Shown here: positions 12,030-33,465 of the stretch, piece by piece
How positions within the stretch are numbered: the stretch's first letter is position 1
How the letters are laid out: every line of letters begins with the position of its first letter
NCBI GenBank assembly: GCA_018697295.1
Contig: JABHTJ010000008.1
Location: 1-53,435 of the forward strand
DNA from: an archaeon
Lineage (GTDB): Archaea; Nanobdellota; Nanobdellia; Pacearchaeales; GW2011-AR1
DNA: 53,435 nucleotides
Direction: 5' to 3'
The notes under the pieces: generated by a model
Databases searched by the model: none
What the model saw: the letters and a program-made list of their open reading frames with translations, nothing else
What the model was told of the DNA's origin: nothing
Position numbers and translations under genes: made by a program

Positions 12030-12031
12030 GA

Positions 12032-12289
12032 ATGATGAATAATGATTATGGAGAGTTCACCACAGGACTTGCAAAAATAATTCTTGATGCAATCATGTCA
12101 GCTCCAGATTCTCAGATACATGCTCCTATTAAAGAATCAACAAAAAACTATTTCTCAACAAAAAGAACATTGCCAGAACAATACGATTATTTCACTACAC
12201 TATCAAAAAAACCGCTAACGCAAATAAGTCCATTTGTAAGGAATCTTTGCGAAGTTCATAGCTATTATCCTCGACCGGTTGAAGATTAG
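12032..12289 (+). CDS. hypothetical protein, 85 aa
   Basis: ORF track; stop lies inside the mbf1-tail repeat. Confidence 0.55.
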   Translation: MMNNDYGEFTTGLAKIILDAIMSAPDSQIHAPIKESTKNYFSTKRTLPEQYDYFTTLSKKPLTQISPFVRNLCEVHSYYPRPVED

Positions 12290-12334
12290 TTTTATTTTCC
12301 TACAATTCATCCAACTCGATATCGTCGTCGATTA
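12279..12334. repeat. displaced copy of the mbf1 3' end (left)
   Basis: about 47/54 identical to 12880-12934; encodes IDDDIELDEL* on minus strand. Confidence 0.85.
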
Positions 12335-12389
12335 AAATTGAATCCAATATTATAATAGTTGGGATATTTGGAGTAGGGGAAAATATCTC

Positions 12390-12818
12390 TTAATCGGGCG
12401 TTGAAAAACTAGGGCTATTAAATGTTTTTAATTTCTCATATAATTGAGGAAATGACTTGTATTCAATTATTTCATTAGAAATATTCCCAAATTTTGGAAA
12501 TTCTAAATCTTCATGAATTAAAAGAATAATTTTTTGCCCTAATTTTATTGCATTATCTAATTCTAATTCCATCCCCTTGCTTTTATCATTAGACTTAATG
12601 AGAGCTATAAAGCAATCGCAATTTTCTTGTTCTTTCAAGCAATAATCATAAATTTGATCGCTATCCATTTTCTCTTCATTAAAATATTTCTCTAAAAAAA
12701 ATGAACAAAATACTTTATCTTCTCCAGTCATCAATATTTTCTTAATATTATTCAAGACTTCCCTTAGAGCGTTAGGCTCCTCTCCAGTAAAACGATAGGA
12801 TAAAAATAATTTGATCAT
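12390..12818 (-). CDS. TIR-like / nucleoside 2-deoxyribosyltransferase-like small protein
   Basis: MIKLFLSYRFTGEE...YCLKEQENCDCFIALIKSNDKSKGMELELDNAIKLGQKIILLIHE. Confidence 0.55.
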   Translation of the reverse strand: MIKLFLSYRFTGEEPNALREVLNNIKKILMTGEDKVFCSFFLEKYFNEEKMDSDQIYDYCLKEQENCDCFIALIKSNDKSKGMELELDNAIKLGQKIILLIHEDLEFPKFGNISNEIIEYKSFPQLYEKLKTFNSPSFSTPD

Positions 12819-12879
12819 ATAATTTATTCTAAAATTGATATTTAAGTATTTTTAGATAAATTAAATACCTAAAATGGCA

Positions 12880-12934
12880 TTGAAGATTAGTTTTATTTTT
12901 CTACAATTCATCAATTTCGATATCGTCGCCAATC
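12880..12934. repeat. mbf1 3' end (intact gene copy, right)
   Basis: partner of 12279-12334, offset 601 bp. Confidence 0.85.
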
Positions 12935-13713
12935 ATTGCGTCAGTTTGAATTCGTTGTTTGTGGTCATTTTCTTTTTGTTCTTTTTTCTTTTTTAGTTCG
13001 ACTAAATCACTTAGAGTAATATTTTCTAAATCCTTTTGATTTTGTTCTTTTGAGAATTTACCCTTTTCTTCAGCGAGTTTTGCTAATCTTTCTTCTTTTA
13101 ATTTTTTTAAATGTCCTAATTCTTCCAAATCATCTCCGCTACCTACATTTTCCATTCTTTCTTGTACCCTCTTTAAAATTTCTTGTTCATCATCCTTTTT
13201 TTGAGCAAAGGTAATCACAGGCTTATGGTTTTTAAGAAGTTTAATTTTTAGAAAATGCTCTAGTTTTAGAAAAATTTCTTCAAAATCATTTGGAAGTTGT
13301 CCTTTTTCTATTTCTTGGAGGATATATTCCGAAACTTCTACTTCTTCAGATAATTGTTTTATGCTCATCTTCATTCTTCTTCTAGCGAGGTTTAATGACC
13401 AGGAGTAGTTATCTAATAGATCTTCGTGATATTGCTTTTTTGGAGGCATTTTTAGCTTTGCTAAATCTCCTTGCATGTGGAGGTCATTTTTCCTTTTTTT
13501 CTCCGGATCATTCATCCCAGACATTTTTTCCATTCTTTCTCTAACAGTATAAGTTGTCTGTGCTCGATCCAATTGCTCGATTGAAGGTTTTCTCATTATC
13601 GGAACGTTTTCTATTTCTGCGCACGGACTACACACGCGAATCATCTCGTGCTCAAAAATTCCTTCGAATAGCTGAGTTTCTTCACTTTCTTTTTTACAAA
13701 ATTTACAACGCAT
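12901..13713 (-). CDS. mbf1: multiprotein bridging factor 1-like: zinc ribbon + HTH + charged C-terminal tail
   Basis: MRCKFCKKES...CSPCAE; RRRMKMSIKQLSEEVEVSEYILQEIEKGQLP HTH; start trimmed from 13860. Confidence 0.78.
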   Translation of the reverse strand: MRCKFCKKESEETQLFEGIFEHEMIRVCSPCAEIENVPIMRKPSIEQLDRAQTTYTVRERMEKMSGMNDPEKKRKNDLHMQGDLAKLKMPPKKQYHEDLLDNYSWSLNLARRRMKMSIKQLSEEVEVSEYILQEIEKGQLPNDFEEIFLKLEHFLKIKLLKNHKPVITFAQKKDDEQEILKRVQERMENVGSGDDLEELGHLKKLKEERLAKLAEEKGKFSKEQNQKDLENITLSDLVELKKKKEQKENDHKQRIQTDAMIGDDIEIDEL

Positions 13714-13917
13714 TAGACTCTTTCTTTTTTGGAAAAAGAAATTCCCTCGAAGTAGAAAAACTGGTTCCAAAACTTCGTTTTGATATTTAATTCCATTCTT
13801 TTTTGAGAATAAAGTTATTTTTAAGTTATATTGTGTTTTGATGTATATGTTTTTGAACATGGAAGATAGAGAAATTAAGAAATTATTCTTGGAAGTTCTA
13901 TTTTTGAAGATAAGAAG

Positions 13918-14571
13918 CTAATTTATTAGAAATTCGTCGAGGCTTTTTGAATTCTCAATATTATAAACAATATCTTGATTATTTATTACGAGTGCTGGGA
14001 GAGTTTCGATCTCATATTTGTCTAGGAGGATATTTAGAGAACTTAGATCTTCGTCTGCTGCGATTGGGAGAAGCAAGATGTTTTCTTTTTCTTGCGTTAC
14101 ATCTGAGAGAATTCTTGACCATACTTTTTGAGTTGCTTTTACTTCAAGATCTTCAGACTCATATTCATAGAGGTACACGATAAGATTATAGTTCTCGCAC
14201 CTCTCCAGAGATTTTTCGCTGCTTATCCAAAGAATTGTTCTGAGAAGGTCATATTTCTTATGAAGAAGTTTTAAACCGCTTGTTAATTTTCCTGACGTTT
14301 CATAGATTTCTAATTGTTTTGCTTCCTCATAGACTTTATTTGCAAAATTTATCTTTGTTTCCTTTATAGATTCACAGCCAATACTCTCTTCTTCAGCTAA
14401 CTGTGAAATTGTTGTGGCGTCAACCAAACTTATTTCTGAAGCAATATAGAGATTATTTATTTTGTTTGAATTTGTTGTCTCAATCGTCATTCCGAGAAAG
14501 AGTCCTACAACGAAAATTGCAACTGTCATAATTAAAGCTTCCCAGAATACATTTTTTTTGTTTTGTAGCAT
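13918..14571 (-). CDS. membrane-anchored protein with C-terminal thioredoxin-like domain
   Basis: N-terminal TM; ...LDKYEIETLPALVINNQDIVY. Confidence 0.6.
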   Translation of the reverse strand: MLQNKKNVFWEALIMTVAIFVVGLFLGMTIETTNSNKINNLYIASEISLVDATTISQLAEEESIGCESIKETKINFANKVYEEAKQLEIYETSGKLTSGLKLLHKKYDLLRTILWISSEKSLERCENYNLIVYLYEYESEDLEVKATQKVWSRILSDVTQEKENILLLPIAADEDLSSLNILLDKYEIETLPALVINNQDIVYNIENSKSLDEFLIN

Positions 14572-14572
14572 A

Positions 14573-15799
14573 TTACCAGTGATCCATCCCCTTCAAGTAT
14601 TTGTAAAATGAAACGATTAGCAAGGGTGGGTATGCGAGCAAATAGAAGACTGAGTATATAAATATGTCGCGGAGAGGGTGTTTGAAATCCTTTTCTCGAG
14701 AGTGAGAGAGTGCAACGAGCGTATAAACTAATCCCAGTGTGAAGAGAACTATTCCGAAGAAAAAGAGGATACTCGGATTTAGAATTACTTCGTCCATTTG
14801 AATAAGTGCGACTTGGGCTTCGAGGGAATATTTGGTGATAAGATATCTAGTGATGAAATATTTTCCCACCCGATATGTTAAGAAGAAAAGTCCTGTTAGG
14901 CCGAGGAACCAAGAGAATGTAAAAAAAGGCATGATGAAAATTCCGAGCATTCCACATTGGAAGAATTTTTTTCGATATTTTGAGACTGTTTGAAGTCCGC
15001 CAACATTCCATCTTATTCTTTGTTTAAACCATTCACCTAATTTTTCGGGAACAAAAGTATATGCCTTTGCGGGAATAGCCATGTGAACCGTCCAGCCTTT
15101 TGAAACAAAATGCCATGTAATTTCAATATCTTCAGTCCAATTTTTTAAATCAAATCCCCCAACTTCGTCAAATGCTTTTTTTCGGTAAATGCTCAAAGGA
15201 CCATTTGTTACGTAAATTGATTCTAAGAATCCGAGGAGTTTTCTGGTGAATGCGATAATTTTATATTCGATTGCTTGAACTTTTGTAAGTTTGTTTGTCT
15301 TATTTGTAACGAGAACTCTCGAGGTTACTGCTCCAGCTTTTTCACTATTGAAAAAACCAACCATCTTATCGATTGCATCTGGATCAGGTAATGAATCTGC
15401 ATCGCTAAATCCGATAAGTTCAGTTTTTACAAATTGTGCACCATAATTTTTTGCCCCTCCTGCCTTTCCAGTATTTTCTGGGGTTTGGACTGCAATTACT
15501 TTCTCATATTTTTGAGCATATTCTTGAATAATTTTATAAGAATCATCTGTTGAACAATCATCGACGACAATTATTTTTTCAAGACCTTTGTAGTTGGAAT
15601 TCATTGCGGCTTCGATTGTTTTTCCAATGCTTTTTTCTTCATTCCAACAAGGAATTACGATGCTTAGGGAATAATTTCTATCCGGCTTAATTACTTCATA
15701 AATTTCTTTTCTATTTTGTGTGTAGACAAGAATGTAAATCAGGAGAAAATAGAATGCTATAAAAGAATATACTAAATATAGGATTGTTAAAAATTCCAT
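14573..15799 (-). CDS. glycosyltransferase family 2, multi-TM (processive type)
   Basis: SIVIPCWNEEKSIGKTIEAAMNS, VDDCSTDDS, FSDADSLPDPD, QRIRWNVGG. Confidence 0.92.
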   Translation of the reverse strand: MEFLTILYLVYSFIAFYFLLIYILVYTQNRKEIYEVIKPDRNYSLSIVIPCWNEEKSIGKTIEAAMNSNYKGLEKIIVVDDCSTDDSYKIIQEYAQKYEKVIAVQTPENTGKAGGAKNYGAQFVKTELIGFSDADSLPDPDAIDKMVGFFNSEKAGAVTSRVLVTNKTNKLTKVQAIEYKIIAFTRKLLGFLESIYVTNGPLSIYRKKAFDEVGGFDLKNWTEDIEITWHFVSKGWTVHMAIPAKAYTFVPEKLGEWFKQRIRWNVGGLQTVSKYRKKFFQCGMLGIFIMPFFTFSWFLGLTGLFFLTYRVGKYFITRYLITKYSLEAQVALIQMDEVILNPSILFFFGIVLFTLGLVYTLVALSHSREKDFKHPLRDIFIYSVFYLLAYPPLLIVSFYKYLKGMDHW

Positions 15800-16431
15800 T
15801 ATTTTTCCTCCACGGGATTTTCTTCTATTTCTTTTTTATCTTCAGTTTTTTCTTCAAGATTATCTGTTTTTTCTTTTTTATGGACATTAAAATATTCATA
15901 AAATTCTTCGGATAAGTTGAGGATATTTGTATGTCCGTCTTTTTTTGCGATTACGAGTCCTAGTTCTCTGAATTTTTTTATGTGATCGTAAGATTTATTT
16001 CCGCGAATTTTTATGACGACGGATTGTTTTATTGGTTGTTTGTATGCGATTACTGCTAACGTTTCTTGTTCTGCCTTTGTGAATTCTGTGTTTCCAGTTG
16101 CAAGTCTGTTAATTAGATAATGATATTTTTCAGTGATGTCCATTTTGTAAGAATTATTTCTATTTACGATTCTTAAGACATTTGAAATTGCACCATATTT
16201 TTTTTCTAACCGGTGGAGAATTTCCTTTAGCATAATCGGATTTATATCTGTTAATCTCATTAACTCTTCTAGTGTCAAAAATTTTCCAGAAATGAATAAT
16301 GCTGCCTCAACTTTTTCTTGGCTTTGAGTTTCGTTTTCTTCAAATTCGTTTTCGATATCTTCTGCAGTTGAACGTGTGATTACTGGTGTTGCCGAGGCAA
16401 TTTCTGGAGATTGATTTATTTCCTCTTCCAT
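15799..16431 (-). CDS. scpB: segregation and condensation protein B
   Basis: VEAALFISGKFLTLEEL...LAVIAYKQPIKQSVVIKIRG. Confidence 0.9.
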   Translation of the reverse strand: MEEEINQSPEIASATPVITRSTAEDIENEFEENETQSQEKVEAALFISGKFLTLEELMRLTDINPIMLKEILHRLEKKYGAISNVLRIVNRNNSYKMDITEKYHYLINRLATGNTEFTKAEQETLAVIAYKQPIKQSVVIKIRGNKSYDHIKKFRELGLVIAKKDGHTNILNLSEEFYEYFNVHKKEKTDNLEEKTEDKKEIEENPVEEK

Positions 16432-16481
16432 TTCAAACCTAGGGACAAAGAGTTTAAGAAGTTTACTCGGGTTTATATTTT

Positions 16482-16979
16482 ATGAAATTGGTGCAGAAGA
16501 TGATTATTTTTATTCTTGGGCTAATTGTTCTTTTATTTTTTATTCGGTTAGTCTTGCCATCTCAAGTTGATGATGTAACACCAGGAATTTATTGTGAAGA
16601 AGAAATTTTGGATAAAGCAGATGTTTATTATGTTGTTCCGAATTTTGAAGGTGAATCAATCTCGGAGAATCTTGAGTGGTGTTCGATGATTTTGGATTCT
16701 GAAAAAGAGTTGGCACTTCATGGATATGAACATACTTATCAAGAATTTGAAAGTGGAGATGCTTCCTTGAAATTGGATAATGGGATTGAGATATTTGAAG
16801 AATGTTTTGGTTATTCCCCTGAGCGATTTAAGGCTCCGAATTTAGCAATTAATAGTGAGAATAAAAAGCTCGTTAAATCACAGATGGAATTGGACGGAAT
16901 ATTTAATCAAGTTTTTCATAAGGTGTATCATTGTAGTGATTCTGGCGTTTTTTCTAATCGATTCGTTAGTTTATTTTAA
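16482..16979 (+). CDS. polysaccharide deacetylase-like (DUF2334-type) membrane-anchored protein
   Basis: N-terminal TM; ALHGYEHTYQEF...CFGYSPERFKAPN. Confidence 0.65.
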   Translation: MKLVQKMIIFILGLIVLLFFIRLVLPSQVDDVTPGIYCEEEILDKADVYYVVPNFEGESISENLEWCSMILDSEKELALHGYEHTYQEFESGDASLKLDNGIEIFEECFGYSPERFKAPNLAINSENKKLVKSQMELDGIFNQVFHKVYHCSDSGVFSNRFVSLF

Positions 16980-17002
16980 ATATAAAAAGTTATAAAGATG
17001 TC

Positions 17003-17419
17003 TTGATTAAATTATTCATGGAAGGCCAAGATAGTTATAGAAATAAAGTACTTGTTGGACTTCATGAAAATGCTACTTTTGGGAGGTCGTTGCATCAAAC
17101 TTATGAAAGAATTGCTGTAGCAAAAGGTTTTGAGTGTGACTTTGCACAAGATGTTAGTCAAATGCTTCGCCTCAGTATTGGAAGATCGCACAGATTTTAT
17201 GCGATGGATTTGAACCTTGGAAATCCAGGAGGAGAAGACCTACTTTCGGCTCAGAGCATTTATCAAATTATTCATCCTCGAATGAGAGAAAAAGAAGCTT
17301 ATTTTATAGGTCTCTCTGGAAGCCAAGCGATTGTTGATAGAGCAAGAGAATTGAGGATTCCTGCAGAACTTAAGAGTGATTTTTCTTTTGCGAAATTTTT
17401 GGATCAAGGTTTTAATTAA
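17003..17419 (+). CDS. receiver-like hypothetical protein
   Basis: FYAMDLNLGNPGGEDLLSA resembles a receiver D-loop; weak. Confidence 0.45.
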   Translation: MIKLFMEGQDSYRNKVLVGLHENATFGRSLHQTYERIAVAKGFECDFAQDVSQMLRLSIGRSHRFYAMDLNLGNPGGEDLLSAQSIYQIIHPRMREKEAYFIGLSGSQAIVDRARELRIPAELKSDFSFAKFLDQGFN

Positions 17420-18510
17420 TCTACGACCATAAATCTTAGAAGTCCGCCCGCTCCTCCGAGATTATCAAACTGGACTCCTTGTGAAGTCTCATCAGTTACT
17501 AAAAATATTTGAGTCGAAGTTTGACCAGCTAATTTTTCTAGTTTTTTTATTTGTTCCCGAGAAAGTGTTCTTGAAATAATTAATTTTTCTACCGCACCTT
17601 TATTGAGCCTGTCTTCTACTTCTAAGAGCCCGTAAGAAACCTTGTCTGGTTCTTTTGCTAATTTTTCAAAGAATTCATCTAGGATAACTTTTTGTTTAGT
17701 GATTTCTTGTTCTGCGAGCAAATCTTGAGAACGCTCTACTAATTCTTGGAGCCCGTGCATTTCTGTTCCTCCTAAATCTCGAACTCCGATAACTTTATCT
17801 TTTAATGCAGTGACGAGACCTGCTTGGACTAAGAAATCTTCTTTTGTAGGGATTGGCCCTCCGATTAAAATTCCTTTTAGTTTTTTATTATCCCAGAAAT
17901 GTTTTTTCATATGTTCTGCAACTCGCTTGAAAAATTCTTTCGCCATCGTTTCCCTAATTCGTGCAAATCTTTGTGCTGATTGGCCCCCAGCTTTTGTTTT
18001 TCCAGGAACTCCCGAAGTTAAATGTTGTAAAACTTTAATATGTTTTCCGTCAAGAACTCCGATTGTTGCTTCGCTTCTTTCAATAATCATTAGACCGTAT
18101 ACTTCATCAGTTTCTAGCATTTCTTGTAATGGATCTAACACAAATGCTTGATCACAACGATAAATTTTTACTCGTAATTTTTTTGGAGGTTCAATTACCC
18201 ACACTTCTGACTTTTCAGTTCCATCTTCTAGTGTTACTGTTCCCGAAAATAAAGCAAGACCGTTTTCAGGTGTTTTTCCAATTTCTTTTAATTTTCTTGC
18301 TGCTCTATCGAGTGCTGTGATTACACTTTTTCTTGTTCCCGTTGACTTAATGTTTGTTGCCGTTCCTTTTTCATTTTCTAATTGTTTGGTCGTTTGTGTT
18401 AGAGTTGCACCTGAAGGAACATAAACAGTAATTAGTTCAGTGTGGCGACCACGATAACCTGCTAGTTCTTCTAAAATCGCTTCTAGTTCAAATTTTTGTG
18501 TTTCTTCCAT
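17416..18510 (-). CDS. prf1: peptide chain release factor aRF1
   Basis: NIKS motif, YRCDQAF (YxCxxxF) motif, GGQSAQRFARIRE. Confidence 0.96.
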   Translation of the reverse strand: MEETQKFELEAILEELAGYRGRHTELITVYVPSGATLTQTTKQLENEKGTATNIKSTGTRKSVITALDRAARKLKEIGKTPENGLALFSGTVTLEDGTEKSEVWVIEPPKKLRVKIYRCDQAFVLDPLQEMLETDEVYGLMIIERSEATIGVLDGKHIKVLQHLTSGVPGKTKAGGQSAQRFARIRETMAKEFFKRVAEHMKKHFWDNKKLKGILIGGPIPTKEDFLVQAGLVTALKDKVIGVRDLGGTEMHGLQELVERSQDLLAEQEITKQKVILDEFFEKLAKEPDKVSYGLLEVEDRLNKGAVEKLIISRTLSREQIKKLEKLAGQTSTQIFLVTDETSQGVQFDNLGGAGGLLRFMVVD

Positions 18511-18548
18511 TGGTTAAATATTGTGAAAAATGTTTATAGAGTTTTGTA

Positions 18549-20927
18549 TCAGATATTATGGCATACGCGTAAATCTTTTTCAAATGAAGATAATTCTTTT
18601 GGAATTTTGATTCCTTTTAGAGGATTTCTTAGAGAAATTCCTTGTTCTTTTTTTGTTTTCCAGATTTGAGAATTGAAATTGAGAAGTTTTTCCACAAGGT
18701 TTAAATCTAGTTCTCCGACATTTGCTTTTGGCCATTCTCCATTTAGCAAGTCGATCCCTTTTTCATTTGCGATTAGAGTTGTAATCTGGGGGATTATTGG
18801 ATATAGTAAAATGAGTAATCTTTCGAGTAAAAAATGGAGAGCATACCTTGCAGAATCTGATTCCTCATTTGAGAATTTATTTTCTTCATTATATGCACGA
18901 TTTTTTACTAACTCCACATAATTCGAAGCGAATATGTCCCATAAAAATTTTCTTAAATCTTGTGCAGGATGATTGAAGTCATATTTTTCGTAAGTCGAAT
19001 CTGTTTTTGAAGTTAAATCTTCGAGGTAATTAATAAATAATTTGTCTAGGGAAGTTAATTTTGGTTTCTTTTTTGGTTTTTCAAACATCATTACAAATTT
19101 TGAAACATTGAGCAATTTATTGAGAGACTTTCTTTCTGCTTTTATTTTTTCTTTTGAACAAGTAAAATCTCCTTTTGATAAATCTCCTTCGGTTGCGGCC
19201 CAAAACCTTAGACTTTCTGCACCATCTTCTTTTAGGATTAGTTGTGGATCAATTACATTTCCTAAAGATTTTGACATTTTTCTTCCGTTTCCGTCGAGAA
19301 TATGTTGGTGAATCCACGTATCGTTAAAACATTCCTTGCCAGTTTCTAAATATCCTCGAAGAATAGTATAGTATAACCAAGTTCTTACAATTTCTTTTCC
19401 TTGAGGTCTTAGGCTTGCAGGATATGCTTTTTTGAAAAATCCATCGTCTTTATGATATTGCAACATATTTAATTCGGAAATTGATGAATCAAACCAAGTA
19501 TCTAGAACTCTTGTTTCTCCAACCCATTTTGCATCTTTGAAATCTTTTACCAATCCGATTACTTTTTTTGTTTTTGCGTCTAAAACTTCTGAATCGTTTT
19601 CTGGAGCTGTTTTCCATGGCTCAACATAAATCCCATTTTTTCCAAGAGCAATTTTATCTTCCGAATACCAAAGAGGAACTGGAGTTGCATAATATCTTCT
19701 TCTGGAGATTGGCCAATCAATTGAAACTGATTCGATCCAGTTATCTAGAATTTTTTTGGAATTTTTTGGATAGAAATTTATTTTCTTAGCTATTTTTTTA
19801 ATATCTTTTTTTACTTCTAATTGTTTTAAATAAAATTCTGGCATTTCGATGAATTCGATTTCTGCTTTTGATCTTTCTGAAATTGGAGTTCTGTGACTTA
19901 TCTTTTCTTGGTTTACTAGCAGATTTTTTTTCTTTAGGAGTTCAATCATTTTTTCTCTTGCCTCTTTTACCTTTAGACCTTCTAATGCTCCGGCTTTTTC
20001 ATTCATTTTTCCATCTTGGTTGATTGCAATTCTCGGCTTTAGATTCATTTCCCTGAAAAATTGGATGTCGGAAACATCTCCGGCCGAACACATCATTACT
20101 AAACCAGTTCCCTTATCGATTTGTGCCGTTGGATGAGCAGTTATCGGAATTTCTTCGTTAAAGATTGGTGAGATGGCCGTTTTTCCTTCAAGTTTCTTAT
20201 ATCTTTTATCCTCAGGATTATAAATTACCATTCCGCACGTCGCAATTAATTCCGGCCTTGTTGTTCCAATGACAACTTTTTCTCCAGTTTCCTTTATTGT
20301 CCATTCAACATCGTTAAAAGTTGAGTCGAGTTCGATATAATCAATTTCAGAATCTGCGATTGTTGTCCTTAGTTTTGGATCCCAATTATTAATTCTTGAA
20401 TCTTCGTAGATTAATCCTTTTTTGAAAAGGTCTATGAAAGTCCATTGTGTGATTTTTCTATATTCTGGAGAATCTGTGTGGTAGATATCTCCGATATTTT
20501 GTCCTTGATTATATGAACTAAATGAAATTCCTAATTTTGCAAATGAATCTATTGACTCAACTGAAGCTTCTCCCAATAGTTTTTCACAGTATTCGATGAA
20601 TTTTTCTCTTCCCACCTTGAATGGCGAGACTTTGAATTTTTTTTCTGCTGCCATTTCTATTGGGAGCCCATTTCTATCAAGACCTAGTGGAAACAAAACT
20701 TCTTCTCCCTTCATTCTCCGGTATCTTGCGAAAAAATCCATGAAACAATACGTTACGGCGTGGCCCATGTGAATTGGAGAGTTGACGTAAGGTGGTGGTG
20801 TGTCAATTGAATAGATTTTTTTCTTTGTTTTTGGATTAAATTTGAATTGATCTGAAGATTTCCAATTAGAAGTTATTTCTTCTTCTAATTCAACGTTCCA
20901 GTTTTTTATTTCGCTTAATTTCTTCAT
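18549..20927 (-). CDS. valS: valine--tRNA ligase (Val/Ile class I family)
   Basis: DTPPPYVNSPIHMGHA, LDRNGLPIE, KMSKSLGNVIDP. Confidence 0.8.
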   Translation of the reverse strand: MKKLSEIKNWNVELEEEITSNWKSSDQFKFNPKTKKKIYSIDTPPPYVNSPIHMGHAVTYCFMDFFARYRRMKGEEVLFPLGLDRNGLPIEMAAEKKFKVSPFKVGREKFIEYCEKLLGEASVESIDSFAKLGISFSSYNQGQNIGDIYHTDSPEYRKITQWTFIDLFKKGLIYEDSRINNWDPKLRTTIADSEIDYIELDSTFNDVEWTIKETGEKVVIGTTRPELIATCGMVIYNPEDKRYKKLEGKTAISPIFNEEIPITAHPTAQIDKGTGLVMMCSAGDVSDIQFFREMNLKPRIAINQDGKMNEKAGALEGLKVKEAREKMIELLKKKNLLVNQEKISHRTPISERSKAEIEFIEMPEFYLKQLEVKKDIKKIAKKINFYPKNSKKILDNWIESVSIDWPISRRRYYATPVPLWYSEDKIALGKNGIYVEPWKTAPENDSEVLDAKTKKVIGLVKDFKDAKWVGETRVLDTWFDSSISELNMLQYHKDDGFFKKAYPASLRPQGKEIVRTWLYYTILRGYLETGKECFNDTWIHQHILDGNGRKMSKSLGNVIDPQLILKEDGAESLRFWAATEGDLSKGDFTCSKEKIKAERKSLNKLLNVSKFVMMFEKPKKKPKLTSLDKLFINYLEDLTSKTDSTYEKYDFNHPAQDLRKFLWDIFASNYVELVKNRAYNEENKFSNEESDSARYALHFLLERLLILLYPIIPQITTLIANEKGIDLLNGEWPKANVGELDLNLVEKLLNFNSQIWKTKKEQGISLRNPLKGIKIPKELSSFEKDLRVCHNI

Positions 20928-21001
20928 GATGTCTTGAGTCTTGAGAGATTTAAAAAAGTGTTGATTGAAGAATTGATAAGGAATATAAATGCAGTTTTTT
21001 A

Positions 21002-21604: not shown

Positions 21605-21681
21605 TTTTAGGGAATAGTCCTGAAAAAGAGAATAATTTAAATAAATTCGATTGTTATAATTATTAGTTAAATTGGTGAAAT

Positions 21682-24061: not shown

Positions 24062-24089
24062 ATGATTGACATGCTAATATCCTAAAGAG

Positions 24090-24470: not shown

Positions 24471-24471
24471 A

Positions 24472-24816
24472 ATGGCGACTATAATGCTCATGCATAAAAA
24501 TCCTGATACGAGATGCTCGATTAAAACTCTTCTTGAAAAAAATGGGTATGATGTTACGGAGGTTGAATCTTTTGAAGATTTCTTAGAAAAAATTGAACAA
24601 CAACAATTTGATTTGGCTTTAGTTGATGGACTTATGCCACGGATGAAAATTTTAGAAACCCTTAAAGAGAAAAATATCAAATCAGTATTTTTTATTTCAG
24701 AGGATGTTGATGAAGATGAATTGAAGTTATATGAAAATGTTATTGGATTTATTGAAGAACCTCAGGAGATAAACGAGTTTTTGGAAAAGATTAAGGGTAT
24801 GTTGGATAAGAAATGA
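24472..24816 (+). CDS. degenerate receiver domain protein
   Basis: MATIMLMHKNPDTRCSIKTLLEKNGYDV...LVDGLMPR...FIEEP; start trimmed from 24442. Confidence 0.78.
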   Translation: MATIMLMHKNPDTRCSIKTLLEKNGYDVTEVESFEDFLEKIEQQQFDLALVDGLMPRMKILETLKEKNIKSVFFISEDVDEDELKLYENVIGFIEEPQEINEFLEKIKGMLDKK

Positions 24817-24896
24817 GACAAAGATTTCTTCAAATAAATTTTAATTTAGTTACCTTAGAGGGTAAATATTATAAGTATCGAGTATTCTAATTTGTC

Positions 24897-27173
24897 ATGA
24901 ACGAAAAGAACACAACCTTAATTATTACAGAAAAACCTGCTGCTGCTGCTAAAATAGCTGCTGCGCTCAGTGATGCAACTGATGAAAAGATTACAAACAA
25001 AGATAAGGTTTCTTATTACGAATTTTACAAGGGAAGTCGGCGTTATATTGTTGGTTGTGCTGTCGGACATTTGTTCGGAATTCAACAAAAAGCTAAACGT
25101 GGACCATTTCCAAATTTTGAGGTTTCATGGCAACCTGCGCATCAGAAAAAGAATGGTTCATTTACTAAAAAATATTTGGCTGTTTTGAAAAAGTTGGCAA
25201 AAGAAGCTGATGAATTTATTGTCGCGACAGACTATGATGTTGAAGGAGAAGTTATTGGACTTAATGTTGTTCGATTTGTTTGTAAGAAAAAAGATGCTAA
25301 ACGAATGAAGTTTTCTTTGCTAACAAAAGAAGCTCTGGATGAATCGTTTGAGAATTTGCAGCCGAATATTAATTGGGGGGCTGCAACTGCGGGAGAGACT
25401 CGACATTTTATTGATTGGTTTTATGGAATTAATTTATCTCGAGGACTTATGAAAGCACTTTCTTCTACAGGAGCATTTAGAATTTTATCTATTGGACGAG
25501 TTCAAGGACCTGCACTTAAAATTTTGGTGGATAGAGAAAAGGAAATTAACGCGTTTAAGCCAGAACCTTATTGGAATATTTTTTTGCTTGTCAAAGATAT
25601 CAAGGGTCAAAAATTGGAAGTTAAGCATCCTAAAGATATTTTTAAGGAAGGGGAACTTTTGAAGTTTAAACATCTACAAGGAAAAACTGGAACTGCAAAA
25701 ACGACATTATCTGAGAAACGAGTTGCCGCTCCAGTTCCATTTGATTTGACTACACTACAAACTGAAGCGTATAAAAATTTTGGTTCGACTCCGATGCAAA
25801 CTTTGAAAGCTGCCCAGAGTCTTTATTTGAAAGGTGCTATTTCTTATCCACGAACATCTAGCCAGGAATATCCAGAAAGTATTGGTTGTCCAGCTATTTT
25901 GAAGAAATTAAAAAAATATACGACGCTTGTCAAATATGCAGTTAATAAAACTCCGACTAAAGGAAAGAAAACTGATCCCGCACATCCAGCGATTTATCCT
26001 ACTGGTGATGCGAAGAAAGTTCCAGAGAGTGAAAAGCGAGTTTATGATTTGATTGTAAAGCGATTTATTAGTTGTTTTTGTGAGGAAGCTATTTTGGAGT
26101 CAAAAAATGTTAAAGTTGTTGTTAATGGTTTAAACTTTACTGCTAATGGAACGAAAATTCAAAAGAAAGGTTGGATGAATGTTTATCCGCACGGAACAAA
26201 AGAAGGTGATGTTGTAACAATGAATGGAAATGTAGATGTACTTGAAATTAGAACTGAGGAAAAAGAAACTAAACCTCCAAGACGTTATTCTGCAGCATCA
26301 CTTGTTAAGGAACTTGAGAAACGCGGGCTTGGAACCAAAGCTACACGGGCAGGAATTGTTGAAACACTTTATTCTCGAGGGTATGCACGTGAGAAAAGTA
26401 TTGAAGTTACTGAACTTGGAATGCGAATGGAAGAAACCTTAGAAAAATATTCCCCGGTGATTTTGGACGAAGCGATGACGAAAGATATGACTGAAGAACT
26501 TGAAAAAATTGAAGTTGCTAAAAGTAAGTATGCTGAGATGGAAAAGAAAATTTTGGATAAGGCGAAGAAAGAAGTTACTAAGATTGCAGAGAGTATGACG
26601 AAGAATTTAGAAGGAATGGGAAAAAGTTTGGCAGATGCGAATGCAGTTGTTTGGGAACAAGAAAAAGAAATGAACACAATGACGGAATGTCCTGTTTGTC
26701 ACGAAGGTAAACTTCGTGTGATGTATGGAAAACGATTCTCTAGGTATTTTGTAAGTTGTGATGACTATCCTGCGTGTAAAACGATTTATAGCTTGCCACC
26801 AAAAGGGGTTGCTAGACCTGCACGATTTACGAAGAATTCTGCAGAAAAGTTTAATGAGGGCCTTACTGAGAATTCTGAAATTTCGGATAAAGAAGAAGGA
26901 GATGTTGAGCCATGTCCAGAATGTTCATGGCCGCAAGTTGCACTTTATCAGCGAGGAAAAGCTCCGTGGAAACTATGCTTTAATCCAGACTGTGTGACGA
27001 ATGAAGAAGCGCAAAAAAAGAAAGCAGAATTTAAAGCCAAACTAGCAAGTGGAGAAATAGAAATCGATAAAGAAGGAAAAATAATCGATCACGGAAAAGA
27101 AGAGAAGGCGAAAAAGAAAGTGAAGAAGCGGAAGAAGGCAGTGAAAAAGCGGAAGAAAGTTGTTAAGAAGTGA
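24897..27173 (+). CDS. topA: DNA topoisomerase I (type IA), zinc-finger and lysine-rich C-terminal tail
   Basis: ITEKPAAAAKIAAAL, TDYDVEGEVIG, ISYPRTSSQEYP, CPVCHEGKL, tail KKVKKRKKAVKKRKKVVKK. Confidence 0.94.
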   Translation: MNEKNTTLIITEKPAAAAKIAAALSDATDEKITNKDKVSYYEFYKGSRRYIVGCAVGHLFGIQQKAKRGPFPNFEVSWQPAHQKKNGSFTKKYLAVLKKLAKEADEFIVATDYDVEGEVIGLNVVRFVCKKKDAKRMKFSLLTKEALDESFENLQPNINWGAATAGETRHFIDWFYGINLSRGLMKALSSTGAFRILSIGRVQGPALKILVDREKEINAFKPEPYWNIFLLVKDIKGQKLEVKHPKDIFKEGELLKFKHLQGKTGTAKTTLSEKRVAAPVPFDLTTLQTEAYKNFGSTPMQTLKAAQSLYLKGAISYPRTSSQEYPESIGCPAILKKLKKYTTLVKYAVNKTPTKGKKTDPAHPAIYPTGDAKKVPESEKRVYDLIVKRFISCFCEEAILESKNVKVVVNGLNFTANGTKIQKKGWMNVYPHGTKEGDVVTMNGNVDVLEIRTEEKETKPPRRYSAASLVKELEKRGLGTKATRAGIVETLYSRGYAREKSIEVTELGMRMEETLEKYSPVILDEAMTKDMTEELEKIEVAKSKYAEMEKKILDKAKKEVTKIAESMTKNLEGMGKSLADANAVVWEQEKEMNTMTECPVCHEGKLRVMYGKRFSRYFVSCDDYPACKTIYSLPPKGVARPARFTKNSAEKFNEGLTENSEISDKEEGDVEPCPECSWPQVALYQRGKAPWKLCFNPDCVTNEEAQKKKAEFKAKLASGEIEIDKEGKIIDHGKEEKAKKKVKKRKKAVKKRKKVVKK

Positions 27174-27177
27174 TAAA

Positions 27178-28131
27178 ATGAAAATACAAGAAAAATCATT
27201 GGATGAGATAAAAAGAATTTTGCAAAAAGAAAAAGAATTTGCGGAAATTAATAGCTGGAAATTTAAGCACATACCACTTGGGGAGATGGAGCATACTTAT
27301 GAGATTTCTAAAGGCAAAAAAATATATTTTTTGAAAGAATTAAAACTTCATGAAGCACAAATGGAATATTTTTTGTGTCGACTTAAATTAAGCCACTTAC
27401 CTTTTTCTATATACCCCGGTCTCTTAAGGCAAAAAATTTTAGTTAGGAAATTTATCAAAGGAAGAATGCTAAGAAGTAAAAATATTGATTTGAACCTCAT
27501 TAAAGAATTTGCGATAATGAGAAATAGATTAAATGAAAAAAGATTTTTTAATGAGTATAATATTCTGAAGGTGAAAAATTTTAGTCAAAAAGACGATGGA
27601 TTTTGCGAAGAGGGGATAAGAAAAAGTTTTTCACAAGCTCAAAAAATTCTAAAAAAATTAAATAAATATAAATTACAAGAAATTGATGATTTTTTAGAAA
27701 TACTAAAAGAACTGGGCAAGAATAAAGGGGGAATTATAAATGATTATATTAGCATGCCGTTTGCAAAACAACATCAAGACTTTAGAGAAGACAATATTAT
27801 TACCGACGCAAAAGGTACCCAAAAATTGATTGATTAGGGATCTTCATACGGATATAATCCATTTCTTTACGATGTTGCACCATTCGTTGTCAATAATCCT
27901 AAGGCACTGAATCATTATATTAAGTACTCAAATAACTGCAATGGAATTTCCAAAGAGCAAATTCAAAAATGGCTTTACGCAGCGCTTGTTTCGAGATTTT
28001 TCGATGTGATAAAATATAGATTACATGCAGATGAAGGAAGAGTAAATACTCGAGAAGATTGTAAAAAATATTTGAAATATGAACTTAAAACATATAAGTG
28101 GTTAATTGAAAGGAAGGCTGGGAAGAAATGA
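27178..28131 (+). pseudogene. aminoglycoside phosphotransferase/kinase-like gene interrupted by in-frame TAG at 27835-27837
   Basis: HQDFREDNIITD...LID[TAG]GSSYGYNPFLYDVAPF... reads in frame to TGA at 28129-28131. Confidence 0.78.
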
Positions 28132-28147
28132 ATAGGGAAATGAAAAA

Positions 28148-28801
28148 ATGGTGAAAAAAACAAATATAGATTATTGGGAACGAATTGTTAAAAATCCTGG
28201 AAAGAATTACAAGGAATTATTTGAAAAAGAAAAACTATTTCTAAGAAAAATAATAAAATCAAATTCAAAAGTCTTAGATATTGGATGTGGAGATGGAAGA
28301 ATAATTTCTGAAATTAAGGATATTCCCAAAGAAATATTTGGAATTGATTTTGACAAAAAGGCTGTTGAAGATGCTCGAGAAAGATTTTCTGGAAATTCTA
28401 AAATAAAAATTATGCAAGGGAGTGCTTTCAAAATCGATTTTAAGAGTGAAACTTTTGATTATGTTCTTCTCATGATGACATTAGTTAATTTTTCAGAGAA
28501 TAAGTTAAAAACACTATCTGAAATGAGTCGCGTACTGAAAGAAAATGGGAGTATAATTTTAAGTGTTTATTCTGATTCCGCATTTAATGAACGAAAAAAA
28601 ATGTATGAAAAAATTGAAGTTCCGATTGAAAAAATTGAGGGGACAAAATTTATTTTTAGAAAAAATATTGGAGCTAATGAGTCAGAACAGTTTTCAATAG
28701 AAGAATTAACAAAGTTATGTAATCTGGCGAATTTGAATATAGAAGATTATGTTGAAACAAAAATTGGATTAATCTGTGAAGTTAAAAAAATTATTCAATG
28801 A
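28148..28801 (+). CDS. class I SAM-dependent methyltransferase
   Basis: KVLDIGCGDGRIISEI...FDYVLLMMTLVNF. Confidence 0.9.
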   Translation: MVKKTNIDYWERIVKNPGKNYKELFEKEKLFLRKIIKSNSKVLDIGCGDGRIISEIKDIPKEIFGIDFDKKAVEDARERFSGNSKIKIMQGSAFKIDFKSETFDYVLLMMTLVNFSENKLKTLSEMSRVLKENGSIILSVYSDSAFNERKKMYEKIEVPIEKIEGTKFIFRKNIGANESEQFSIEELTKLCNLANLNIEDYVETKIGLICEVKKIIQ

Positions 28802-28810
28802 AAATAATTT

Positions 28811-29806
28811 CTAAATAACACCTTCGCTCAAAAAATCTTCATAAGATTTTTCTCCAACTGCTACTAAACATTCTTTGAAAGTTAGAATTGGTTTGGGATA
28901 TTTTGCGAAGTCGTCGATTGCAATTCTTGGACATGCGAGTTCGACAAATGCATCGATATCATAAAAATTCATTAATTTATCTGGAGAGAATTCAGACATA
29001 GTTACCGTAATTACATCTTTGCCAGCATTTTTCATTTTGTCGATTAAGAATTTTGATGAGCCGAACTTTTGTCCAGGTTTTACTTCAGAAATAATAGCTA
29101 CTTTTTTTGCTTGTTTGAATTTGTCGATTGACATGATTCGTTGTTTTAATATTTTATCTCGCACATTTCCCATAGGAGTTATGGTGTTGTTGTAGACATC
29201 GAGTAAGTATACTGGTTTTTCTACTGCGATTGCAGCACCCATTGAATGAAAATTATTTCCGATAACTAAGAATGCGTCGACATCATCTGAAATTGTTTTG
29301 AGACCTCCAAATTCACAACCGATGACGTGTCCAGGATATGCTGCGAATCCTTTTTTGTCTGAGAGGATTACTTCTACCCCATTTTCTTTATAAAATTCGA
29401 TTATATTTTCTACTTCGTGTTTATGTTGGATGGAATATGACAATCCAATTTTTTTGTAATCTTTGAAATATTGTAGAGATTCTTCTAAGAGCTGTTTAAT
29501 ATCGAAGTCATCAATTATTTCAATGTAGAGAATTGGGAATTTTGAATCGATAAATTTTGCGTGACCGAAGTGGATGATTAAATCTGCGCCGACAGATTCT
29601 GCTTCGACAGTTGCTATTGCGCATCCGCCCCACGCAGTTTCGCCAGAGAAAATTACTTCGATGTTGAGATCAGGTATTGATTCGATTGTTTGTTGCACTA
29701 AGAATGCTTTTTGCTTTATTCCTTCGGGTAGTTGAACTAAAACTTTTTTTGGTTTTATTTTTTCTAGTTCGCTGATTAGTTTTGGTAATTCGAAATCGAG
29801 TGCCAT
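28811..29806 (-). CDS. dph2: diphthamide biosynthesis enzyme Dph2
   Basis: KVLVQLPEGIKQKA, TAWGGCAIA, HFGHAKF, ELACPRIAIDDF. Confidence 0.92.
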   Translation of the reverse strand: MALDFELPKLISELEKIKPKKVLVQLPEGIKQKAFLVQQTIESIPDLNIEVIFSGETAWGGCAIATVEAESVGADLIIHFGHAKFIDSKFPILYIEIIDDFDIKQLLEESLQYFKDYKKIGLSYSIQHKHEVENIIEFYKENGVEVILSDKKGFAAYPGHVIGCEFGGLKTISDDVDAFLVIGNNFHSMGAAIAVEKPVYLLDVYNNTITPMGNVRDKILKQRIMSIDKFKQAKKVAIISEVKPGQKFGSSKFLIDKMKNAGKDVITVTMSEFSPDKLMNFYDIDAFVELACPRIAIDDFAKYPKPILTFKECLVAVGEKSYEDFLSEGVI

Positions 29807-29850
29807 GTTGGAAAAGGGAAAGGTGGGTTTTTAGGTGTTTTGGAAGGAGA

Positions 29851-30582
29851 CTAAAACATTCCCTTCTTGCGGATTCCAGAATTAATAATTTCAAAATTAA
29901 AATTTTTGACTGGAAGACTTCGGTGTTTTTGAAGAGTTATTTTTCTTTTAAAATTATTCCCAGATAGTTCGATTAAACATTTGCTCCAGTATTTTAACAA
30001 ATCTCCACCGACCATTGAAACTTTTTTTTCAGAAGCACTATTTTCTTCTTGAAAGCTTGCATATACTTGGTTAGTGATTACTACCGGAATATTTTTTTTA
30101 CGTGCTATTTCATTTAATGTCCTCAACTGGTTTGCAAGATTTCTATTAACGTCTGAGATTTTTTCACTATCTTTTGAACTTATTGCCGAACCCAATTCTA
30201 ATCGATACAACATTGCAATGCTGTCAATGATAATTAGAGAAACTGTTTCTTTTTTTAGATGTGCGAGTAATTTTTGGAATGCTTGTTCTTGTTCTTCAAA
30301 ACTTGTCGGTTTTAATAAAAAAATATTTTGTAAATCATTTTCTATTTCTTCTTTTTCTCCTCGGTGAATTTGTTTGAATCGCTCAGTTGAGAATCCTCCC
30401 TCAGTATCTATAAAGAAAACTTTCTTCCCTTTTTTTGCTAAAGAAGTTGCAACAATCATACATAGATTTGATTTTCCCGAACCACCAGGCCCATAAATAG
30501 TTGTGATAATATCTGACTCGTATCCTCCGTACAAAAATTTGTTTAAATCGTAAGAGCCTGAAGAGATTTTTTCTTGTAACAT
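29851..30582 (-). CDS. radB: DNA repair and recombination protein RadB
   Basis: YGPGGSGKSNLCM Walker A, FIDTEGGFS, LIIIDSIAMLYRLE, NQVYASF. Confidence 0.9.
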   Translation of the reverse strand: MLQEKISSGSYDLNKFLYGGYESDIITTIYGPGGSGKSNLCMIVATSLAKKGKKVFFIDTEGGFSTERFKQIHRGEKEEIENDLQNIFLLKPTSFEEQEQAFQKLLAHLKKETVSLIIIDSIAMLYRLELGSAISSKDSEKISDVNRNLANQLRTLNEIARKKNIPVVITNQVYASFQEENSASEKKVSMVGGDLLKYWSKCLIELSGNNFKRKITLQKHRSLPVKNFNFEIINSGIRKKGMF

Positions 30583-30642
30583 GATAGTTTTAACTTTAGA
30601 ATTATTAAAAACATTTATATAGTTTAGAGAATGAGAGTTATT

Positions 30643-31044
30643 ATGGCAAAGAAGGTGATGAAGAAAAAAGTTTCTAAAAAAGTTGTTAGAAGACCTGCAG
30701 TAAAGAAAAAAGTTGTTAGAAAACCTGTTACAGTTAGAAAAATTTCTAAAAAAGTTGTTAAGCGTTCTGCGAAGAGATCACGTCCAAAAACTACTCAAGT
30801 TAAAACTGTTACACGGAATGCTTCTGGAGGAAAACGAGTAAATTGGATTTTAGTATTACTTATTTCTATTTTTCTTGGAATTTTTGGAGTGGATCGATTT
30901 TTAATGGGGAAAATTTGGACCGGAATTTTAAAATTATTAATTACACTTAGTACTGTCTTTGTATTTGGATGGATTTGGTGGTTAATTGATGTTATTTTAA
31001 TTGCTTCAAAGTATAATTTTAGCGGTGTTGTTTGGGTAGATTAA
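30643..31044 (+). CDS. TM2-domain membrane protein with lysine-rich N-terminal extension
   Basis: KKKVSKKVVRRPAVKKKVVRKP... then LGIFGVDRFLMGKIWTGILKL...WWLIDVILI. Confidence 0.82.
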   Translation: MAKKVMKKKVSKKVVRRPAVKKKVVRKPVTVRKISKKVVKRSAKRSRPKTTQVKTVTRNASGGKRVNWILVLLISIFLGIFGVDRFLMGKIWTGILKLLITLSTVFVFGWIWWLIDVILIASKYNFSGVVWVD

Positions 31045-31045
31045 G

Positions 31046-31333
31046 ATGGATTTAAAAAAGGAACCAACAGGAGAGCGTAAAGAGCTTTTATGGAGAATTT
31101 TGGTCGCAATAGTTTCTGGGATTATTTTAGGAGTTTGGAGATATTTAATTTTAGTTCTTGGAGTAGTCCATTTTCTCATAGTCTTGTTTTCTGGAAAAAG
31201 AGAGCAGGGTCTCGCTGACTTTAGTGAATATTGGAATACTGAAACATACCGCTATATCAAATATTTGACTTTCGTGACTAATGAGCGACCATTTCCATTT
31301 ACATCGATGCAACAGATGAGCAAGTTTGAATAA
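31046..31333 (+). CDS. DUF4389-like membrane protein
   Basis: GVVHFLIVLFSGKREQGLADFSEYWNTETYRYIKYLTFVTNERPFPF. Confidence 0.72.
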   Translation: MDLKKEPTGERKELLWRILVAIVSGIILGVWRYLILVLGVVHFLIVLFSGKREQGLADFSEYWNTETYRYIKYLTFVTNERPFPFTSMQQMSKFE

Positions 31334-31341
31334 TTTTTAAG

Positions 31342-32778
31342 ATGAAACCTACTAAAAAAGATCCAAAAGAGAAAATTGTAATTATTCTAATAGGGTTTTT
31401 TCTTATACTTTCTTTGACGAGTATTTTTTTACTTAAAGCTCGACTTACAGGGGAGCAAGAAAATTCATTACAAAATTCTCCAATAATTTCTAATCGACTT
31501 CGTTATATCGCAGAATGTAAAGAACCATTATTTATGGCACTCGAGAAACAAACAGAAGGATCGTGTGGTACTTCCTGTATTCCAGATCATCCACCAATTA
31601 CATTGCACCATTACGGGAAGTGTAAAACGAATAAAAAAGGAATTCTTAAAAGTTTTAACTTGGGAGATTCATTTATGGAAGACTTTGTAGGAGATGGGGA
31701 TGGGGATGGGTTTAGAGAAGTTGTTTTAATCCCTTTGGAAGATTCCCAAGTATTTTATGTGTATTCGGGAAAAACAGGAAATTTAGTCATTCAAAAAAAT
31801 ATTGGAGTTCCAATCAAGAAGATATTTGGATTAGAAGATGTTAATGGAGATGGAAAGGGAGATGTTGCAATACGAATAGCAAATGGATTGGTGAGTGGTT
31901 CTGGACAGATAGAATTTAGTAAAGTTAGAATCTATGATGGAGCTACAGGAAACCTAATTTCTGAAATTAATCCATCATCCGAACAAGCATGGGAGCAATT
32001 CGGAGATTATGTTGAAAACCTTGGAGATTTAAATGGAAATGGAATGAATGAACTGGGAATCTCAAGTCCGAAGTACGATTCTACAATTGATGTAGCCCAT
32101 AATGGCGGAAAAACTAGGATTTATTCATTTAGTCAAGGCTCGTTTAATGAATTAGACGCTGTTTTCGGAGCTCAAGGAAATTTTGATGGGATAACTGGTA
32201 TTGGCCCCTTGGGAAATTTAAATGGAGGAAGTGATAAAGAATTTTATATTAGTGGAGATGATATAATGTCTGTATACTCATTCACCTCAGGAAATGGTGT
32301 ATTCCTTAAAGAAATTGTCGTTGAAGCAAGTTTACCGATAATAAACTTTGCAGAAGCAATAGACTTTACAAATGATGGAAATAAAGAATTGATCATTGCA
32401 CAACCAAAGGCATACTCTCTCCTACAAGGAATTTTTGGTCTCGTAGAGATCTATGATCCAAACCTTGTAACTCTTTACTGGAGCAAGACAAATGAAAAGA
32501 TACTTAGTTTAGATAGTCAGCTAAACACTCATTTCGGAAGAGATATTGCAATAATAGATGATATAACTGGAGATGGAATTGAAGAATTGGTTATATCGGC
32601 TTCCGGAGGATGGGCAAAACATAATTATAATAATTGGATGGGAGACTTAAATCATCCTTATCAAAAGGTTGCGGGAGTAATCTATATCCTTGATGTTGTT
32701 CAAGATGAAGTAATTCAAAGATATTTAGGGGATGTTGAATACCAAGGACTTGGACACCGATTAACTTCTATTGAATAA
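31342..32778 (+). CDS. membrane-anchored FG-GAP/VCBS beta-propeller protein
   Basis: N-terminal TM; Ca-binding DGDGDGF, DVNGDGKGD, DLNGNGMNE, DITGDGIEE loops. Confidence 0.87.
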   Translation: MKPTKKDPKEKIVIILIGFFLILSLTSIFLLKARLTGEQENSLQNSPIISNRLRYIAECKEPLFMALEKQTEGSCGTSCIPDHPPITLHHYGKCKTNKKGILKSFNLGDSFMEDFVGDGDGDGFREVVLIPLEDSQVFYVYSGKTGNLVIQKNIGVPIKKIFGLEDVNGDGKGDVAIRIANGLVSGSGQIEFSKVRIYDGATGNLISEINPSSEQAWEQFGDYVENLGDLNGNGMNELGISSPKYDSTIDVAHNGGKTRIYSFSQGSFNELDAVFGAQGNFDGITGIGPLGNLNGGSDKEFYISGDDIMSVYSFTSGNGVFLKEIVVEASLPIINFAEAIDFTNDGNKELIIAQPKAYSLLQGIFGLVEIYDPNLVTLYWSKTNEKILSLDSQLNTHFGRDIAIIDDITGDGIEELVISASGGWAKHNYNNWMGDLNHPYQKVAGVIYILDVVQDEVIQRYLGDVEYQGLGHRLTSIE

Positions 32779-32790
32779 TTAAGGTTAGAA

Positions 32791-32838
32791 TTATTCAAAC
32801 TTCTTAAAATCGGGAACTATAGAATCAATATCTTCTTT
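32791..32838. repeat. displaced copy of rpoL 3' end (left)
   Basis: about 80% identical to 33211-33258, offset exactly 420 bp; encodes EDIDSIVPDFKKFE* on minus strand. Confidence 0.8.
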
Positions 32839-33151
32839 CGTCAAGGTCATCATCAGCATGATGAAAATCCTCTAAGATACGACTTGCTAATTCTCCATAC
32901 CCCTTCTTTACAGAAACTAACTGGACTGTATTGTTTCCTTCAGTTTCATTAACTCTAAAAATATATCCTTGAGGGTTGTATTCTAAATCTACTGGGAGCA
33001 AGTAATTTGCCTCATCTACTTGGCCAGCGATTCCGCGATAAGGGCGCTTCATAGAACTTTCTAATCCCTCGGCAGAACTTACAGTTATTTTTAAAGTTGT
33101 TGAGGTCGAATGCAATATGCAGTCATTGTCAAAAAAATCTCAAATATCCAT
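32825..33151 (-). pseudogene. hypothetical accessory gene with in-frame TGA at codon 4 (ORF track calls 32825..33115 from TTG)
   Basis: MDI[TGA]DFFDNDCILHSTSTTLKITVSSAEG...; TATA box CTTATAAA at 33173-33180, 22 nt upstream of ATG 33151. Confidence 0.55.
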
Positions 33152-33172
33152 AGAATGAATAAATGAGAGTTA

Positions 33173-33180
33173 TTTATAAG
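33173..33180 (-). promoter_or_regulatory. TATA box of the 32825..33151 gene
   Basis: CTTATAAA on minus strand, same 22-nt spacing as other leaderless genes here. Confidence 0.5.
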
Positions 33181-33210
33181 ATTTTGTATAAGGAGAAAAG
33201 GAGGCAGGGT

Positions 33211-33465
33211 TTATTTCAATTTCTTAAAATCAGTAACTGCAGAATCAATTTCTTTTTCAAGATTTTTGATTGCATCTTTCAAAACTTTTTTTGCGTTGTC
33301 CGCTTCAATATGAAGAATGGGGTTTTTCGTTGGATGTTCTCTTTTCCAAACAGAAACTTTAGCCCCTGCATTGTTTGCATATACTCTAAGCACTTCTGCA
33401 AGAGTTACACTTGCGATTTCAATATCTAAGCTAGACTTTTCATCATTAATAATTTTTACTTCCAT
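33211..33465 (-). CDS. rpoL: DNA-directed RNA polymerase subunit L
   Basis: TLAEVLRVYANNAGAKVSVWKREHPTKNPILHIEAD... Confidence 0.82.
   Translation of the reverse strand: MEVKIINDEKSSLDIEIASVTLAEVLRVYANNAGAKVSVWKREHPTKNPILHIEADNAKKVLKDAIKNLEKEIDSAVTDFKKLK

Follow-up and report, generated by a model that had tools for sequence, protein, structure and literature searches.

The 53,435-nt contig JABHTJ010000008.1 (GenBank assembly GCA_018697295.1), from an archaeon of the lineage Nanobdellota, Nanobdellia, Pacearchaeales, GW2011-AR1, carries two small inserts, each lying behind the 3′ end of a conserved gene and each followed by a second copy of that gene's tail. The genes are mbf1, which encodes an aMBF1-like multiprotein bridging factor, and rpoL, which encodes RNA polymerase subunit L. 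By the window we mean this whole contig (C2), one of the nine contigs of the source genome (G000; 731,777 bases, every base of which was read). Uncultured DPANN archaea have tiny genomes with patchy, fast-changing accessory genes. The features at the two loci, including the open reading frames (ORFs) that form the cargo, are as follows:

12901-13713, minus strand: aMBF1-like gene (270 aa), the intact target; matches TIGR00270 with E = 2.4e-12, below the cut-off of that model
12880-12933, minus strand: proximal, functional tail of mbf1 (its final 33 nt and 21 nt of 3′ untranslated region), found by repeat search
12390-12818, minus strand: cargo ORF 1 (142 aa), weakly similar to nucleoside 2-deoxyribosyltransferase (NDT; TIR-like fold family)
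12279-12332, minus strand: distal copy of the mbf1 tail, reading IDDDIELDEL*, 48/54 identical to the proximal tail
33211-33465, minus strand: rpoL (84 aa), the intact target, identified as an ORF with a family match
33211-33257, minus strand: proximal, functional rpoL tail (last 47 nt), found by repeat search
32825-33115, minus strand: cargo ORF 2, an orphan (96 aa from a TTG start or 75 aa from ATG at 33052)
32791-32837, minus strand: distal, decayed copy of the rpoL tail, 38/47 identical to the proximal tail, with six of seven changed codons non-synonymous

The architecture that a preliminary description had reported for both loci—an intact gene, an ORF on the same strand and then a copy of the gene's own tail—was confirmed in the sequence; the interval given there, 12279-33258, only spans the two. 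The distal copy lies downstream in each case, 601 nt from the proximal one at mbf1 and 420 nt at rpoL, where the stop codon of the cargo ORF falls within it. Both cargo ORFs have positive coding scores under the codon model of the source genome. These tail copies are not chance matches: in an inverted-orientation control on the 809 gene ends of the source genome the top score was 14.5, against 28.0 for mbf1 and 24.5 for rpoL. An Rfam search of the window gave no match.

The inserts were expected to be missing from the same sites in relatives, and this was borne out, as neither window cargo was found behind rpoL or mbf1 there. Relatives of the mbf1 cargo are patchily distributed (18 of 138 family genomes, source genome included) and the rpoL cargo has none in the 137 other family genomes. 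In most relatives, radB lies downstream of rpoL in the same orientation; across 67 syntenic loci the spacing runs from 31 to 2237 nt, with a gap of <80 nt in 18 and diverse ORFs between the two genes in about 48. A genome from a different genus (G028) carries, behind rpoL, a 126-aa cargo unlike that of the source genome, and its distal rpoL copy, which bears a frameshift, is followed by 21 identical nt (TATAATAATCCTTATTAATTC) that match the rpoL-radB spacer of an uninserted relative. With this uninserted-type spacer directly after it, the distal tail is the original end of the gene, and it is the cargo that came in. Taken as a whole, the rpoL-radB interval (L188-L267) is a hotspot of gene gain with many different ORFs.

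The preliminary description had proposed a scan of gene tails throughout the genome, and that scan, extended to related genomes (~3.4 Mb in total with the source genome), returned a third case in the source genome, at an iscU/nifU-like gene (C9:59470-60132) where a 56-aa ORF follows and the tail is copied (33/42) at a distance of 233 nt, as well as more in relatives. In addition to rpoL in G028, these comprise inserts at two genes of G009, namely PCNA and a gene for a membrane protein (its repeat perfect over 35 nt, 35/35); at cbf5 in G036; at a winged helix-turn-helix (wHTH) gene in G008; at the Hef-associated nuclease (HAN) gene in G010; at aRF1 in L199; and at an NDP-sugar epimerase gene in G052, where all 53 nt of the repeat agree (53/53). 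Probable cases are lonB in G053 (repeat 62/63), hsdS in G017, recovered through a gapped tail match, and a small gene in G071. G052 and G053 belong to other orders of the class. We thus count 14 cases, of which eleven are convincing (three in the source genome and eight in relatives) and three probable; a match in G036 at 54039 (28/34, mixed strands) is held as possible only. Insertion into a previously uninterrupted locus has taken place in several genera and, with other cargo, more than once at the same gene, and single-gene insertion at the 3′ ends of conserved genes is a real, recurring route of gene gain in this archaeon and its relatives. The suggested preference for information-processing genes was unsupported, given that iscU, lonB, the NDP-sugar epimerase, hsdS and a membrane protein of unknown function are targets as well.

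Several other matches were set aside because they fell among paralogues, tandem copies, low complexity or gaps: the tails that ribosomal P0 and P1 share (C7), paralogues in tandem at C6:117293, L221 and L235, a gap in the assembly at G036:61827, matches within other genes in L201 and L253, and the repeats in G055. Separately, the source genome has a tyrosine-recombinase-like gene of 338 aa (G000:C9:52228-53374) beside tRNA-Glu, a classical target, and this gene is ~6 kb away from the insert at iscU.

A second scan recovered 56 isolated direct-repeat pairs from ~2,900 genes of the source and related genomes; 11 stood at gene tails, against 2.5 expected from random placement, although on inspection four of these 11 were tandem or paralogue cases, and the real cases at iscU and in G008 fell outside the filters. 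A baseline of 100 kb of E. coli with 92 called genes was free of tail repeats, a sample too small to give a rate.

The inserts add 233-1372 nt and hold one or two ORFs. No cargo protein matched a recombinase family, and the claims that the inserts lack an integrase and usually consist of one gene were upheld. No match to cas1 families was found among the cargo of these one- or two-gene inserts, and none to viral PHROG families except the weak NDT one. The first cargo gene lies on the strand of the target in 12/14 cases (one-sided binomial p ~0.006), and a TATA-like stretch was seen by eye 25-30 nt upstream of several cargo starts. Repeats begin 27-60 nt before the stop codon (earlier in lonB) and end near the stop or up to 21 nt past it. 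Between 1.6 and 40 kb away there were no comparable tail copies, only paralogues or low-complexity matches, so that small size is a property of the inserts and not of the search. The aRF1 insert carries a radical-SAM protein (L199:18067-18897) that matches prokaryotic viperin models (E = 2e-31). Proteins built of SPGHG..D.V.. units (G009:C2:72313-73068, L180:1812-2561), without a Pfam hit and patchy in distribution (21/138 family genomes), form a family found as cargo both behind PCNA in G009 and behind the HAN gene in G010.

Versions without cargo also occur: the aRF1 tail may occur in two or three copies, and that of radB recurs 35-70 nt further on, often with a small hairpin in between. The sites are:

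L216:5560-5880 (three tandem copies), L262:4590-4700, L210:11054-11110: inserts of only 35-70 nt without cargo, often with a hairpin, each ahead of a duplicated tail from aRF1, radB or another gene
L218:8073-8160, L247:12115-12180, L217:15379-15470: further inserts of this kind, each likewise ahead of such a tail copy

At tRNA genes only a few tiny tail copies were found. Fragments of tRNA-Cys, tRNA-His, tRNA-Tyr and tRNA-Glu are found less than 300 nt from the intact gene (L246:2401-2420, L172:6889-7050, G009:C2:135138-135380 and 275619-275950).

The tail pairs differ in age. Old pairs show five synonymous and 15 non-synonymous codon differences, resembling neutral decay; non-synonymous changes prevail in the distal copies of rpoL in the source genome (6/7) and of HAN (6/9), and those of aRF1 and iscU contain an in-frame stop. 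In young pairs (at least 84% identical) there are 14 synonymous versus 10 non-synonymous differences (cbf5 4:0, PCNA 4:1, wHTH 2:0). The distal lonB tail, >100 nt long, has its substitutions in the left part. The point at which the copied tail starts varies between species at the same gene (about −43, −53 and −66 at aRF1; about −21 to −30 at radB), and stop codons are replaced at the crossover (TAG/TAA, TGA/TAA).

We tentatively favour insertion of foreign cargo together with a foreign tail, guided by homology between tails, as the explanation of these structures. A short piece of foreign DNA (about 0.2-1.4 kb, usually with one accessory gene) would arrive at the 3′ end of a conserved gene, bearing the cargo and its own version of the target tail from a related organism. 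Recombination within the shared tail would join the piece to the resident gene, which would stay intact; the cargo would then trail that gene, and the resident tail, displaced downstream, would decay there. From the synonymous excess in young pairs and from the far end of the mbf1 insert we infer import of the second tail and not its duplication on the spot. At that far end lie two further features:

12032-12289, plus strand: convergent 85-aa ORF from the ORF list, whose stop codon lies within the distal mbf1 tail copy
12358-12377, plus strand: candidate decayed version of the conserved tail of RPA, the convergent gene (17/20 identical to 12011-12030)

The candidate RPA-tail copy (RLRYLG* to LGYLE*) adjoins the distal mbf1 copy, and the far end of the insert looks as if a piece of a donor's mbf1-cargo-RPA intergenic region may have been taken in, in the orientation expected. 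Taken alone, the candidate copy is a weak indication. Of the three mechanisms offered in the preliminary description, recombination with incoming tails fits best and integron-like capture worst, as there were no attC-like inverted-repeat sites at the junctions and no cassette arrays, only single inserts.

Several points weigh against homology-guided insertion. The RPA-tail match (17/20) could be due to chance, and no donor sequence was found. A naive test of the synonymous excess gives p = 6e-4, whereas a fairer null that allows for synonymous drift of the working copy has an expectation of ~0.4 and p ~0.05, which makes the excess borderline and suggestive only. The copied tail, mostly 27-60 nt long, is more uniform than one-sided illegitimate joining would predict, and is similar in length to crenarchaeal integrase att sites of 29-69 bp (PMC6563490).

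The main rival is a site-specific recombinase acting in trans: the inserts would be integrase-less elements flanked by attL and attR in a gene's 3′ end, moved by the tyrosine recombinase of another element or virus, much like cis-mobilizable elements (CIMEs) reduced to one gene. We regard this as a serious possibility, if a less likely one than homology-guided insertion. Direct repeats that restore the target gene in the manner of attL/attR are present; their length, their position across the stop codon and the replacement of that stop are as in known archaeal integration at protein-gene 3′ ends; two repeats are perfect (35/35 and 53/53); and the tyrosine recombinases of the hosts are not confined to XerA-like ones, the source genome having three PF00589 genes. 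Against it, none of 13 repeats exceeds random gene tails in dyad symmetry, junction positions at one gene vary, and the only PF00589 protein found in G036 is XerA-like, yet that genome has an insert. In ~3.4 Mb there was no integrase-bearing counterpart at a gene tail, nor were large elements with tail att sites found up to 19 kb around non-Xer integrases or along whole contigs, and in IMG/VR viral contigs neither tail motifs nor two cargo proteins had a match. The missing dyads, the varying start points, G036 and the lack of an integrase-bearing or viral counterpart are why general homology-guided recombination, one-sided homologous or annealing-type, appears the likelier agent; uniform repeat lengths that match known archaeal att sites mean that we prefer it only moderately to a dedicated integrase. 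It seems rather unlikely that a dedicated recombination system, widespread among DPANN archaea of the Nanoarchaeota class, has conserved-gene 3′ tails serve as attachment points for single-gene cassettes mobilised in trans, an integron-like mode of gene addition whose cassettes carry no integrase. For the candidate undescribed system raised in the preliminary description, the cases yielded no recombinase, no core conserved across repeats, no dyad symmetry and no mobile form.

It is improbable that the inserts are remnants of larger viruses or plasmids that integrated at gene-tail att sites and were deleted down to one gene. A three-step decay from integrative and conjugative elements (ICEs) or integrative and mobilizable elements (IMEs) to CIMEs is known (PMC5704250), and the genomes of these archaea are very small, but tiny size, with one or two intact ORFs, already marks the youngest cases (35/35, 53/53, 62/63), neither intermediate sizes nor integrase fragments were seen, and the cargo has the near-complete lack of viral PHROG matches noted above. 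Still less probable as a general account is an assembly artefact in which a shared tail is repeated at the branch point of strain versions that differ downstream. Metagenome assembly appears to be the origin of every genome used, strain differences do start at gene ends, and the near-exact or mostly synonymous repeats (G053 lonB, G052, G036 cbf5, G009) would resemble such an artefact, so that assembly error could account for some of the youngest cases. The in-frame stops in aRF1 and iscU, the frameshift in G028 rpoL and the non-synonymous changes in source-genome rpoL and HAN are, however, incompatible with strain versions of a working gene, and such decayed distal copies show old insertions, not only assembly errors. 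To our knowledge, the perfect repeat lengths of 35, 53 and about 74 correspond to no familiar assembler k-mer size, which also counts against an artefact. Least probable is an in-place tandem duplication of the tail with downstream DNA, or the action of an unrecognised transposase that makes long target-site duplications. The short cargo-less duplications at aRF1, radB and other genes would fit it, but the cargo is not downstream of the targets in relatives, the original flank in G028 directly follows the distal copy, and copies that start identical and then decay would not give the synonymous excess of cbf5 and PCNA.

The decayed tail is a datable scar, and scanning any genome for it would list recent single-gene acquisitions and their targets directly. 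The cargo includes a viperin-like and a TIR/NDT-like protein besides orphans, so defence genes may travel by this route. Essential genes would also be shown to serve as insertion sites unharmed, since a working tail is brought or left by every insert. Within the open-access literature searched, no account came to light of DPANN archaea with one-gene inserts that lack a recombinase and duplicate a gene tail.

Comparison with known systems shows partial likenesses. Integrons occur in archaea, with Nanoarchaeota among the phyla (PMC9668308), and share single-gene cassettes with our cases; the inserts here differ in having no attC-like inverted repeats, arrays or adjacent IntI, and their repeat is the target's own tail. 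Casposons, known from the 3′ ends of ef-2 and further genes (PMC6563490), also combine a gene 3′-end target with target duplication, but have Cas1 and terminal inverted repeats where our inserts have one or two small genes and no such family match. In the minimal mobile elements of Neisseria, by a definition quoted in PMC3082526, alternative gene cassettes between conserved genes are moved by homologous recombination; the rpoL-radB interval similarly holds different whole genes per lineage without a recombinase (67 loci), although exchange through both flanking genes would leave no duplicated tail. CIMEs, defined as att-flanked elements without integration genes (PMC5704250), are alike in having direct-repeat ends in a gene's 3′ end with no integration or transfer genes between them; ours differ in holding about one gene, with no visible recombinase core and no related integrase-bearing element found at the site. 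Tyrosine-integrase elements share att-like repeats that restore the target, while their internal integrase gene and imperfect-dyad core are missing from the inserts. Archaeal attB sites within protein genes have been reviewed (PMC8371274), and in Thaumarchaeota mobile elements integrate at protein-gene 3′ ends with replacement of the stop codon (PMC6563490). Those elements are proviruses, casposons and conjugative or cryptic integrated elements, whereas the inserts here are recombinase-free and 0.2-1.4 kb long; in common they have the targeting of a conserved protein gene's 3′ end, repeats of about the length of crenarchaeal att sites and an incoming stop codon.

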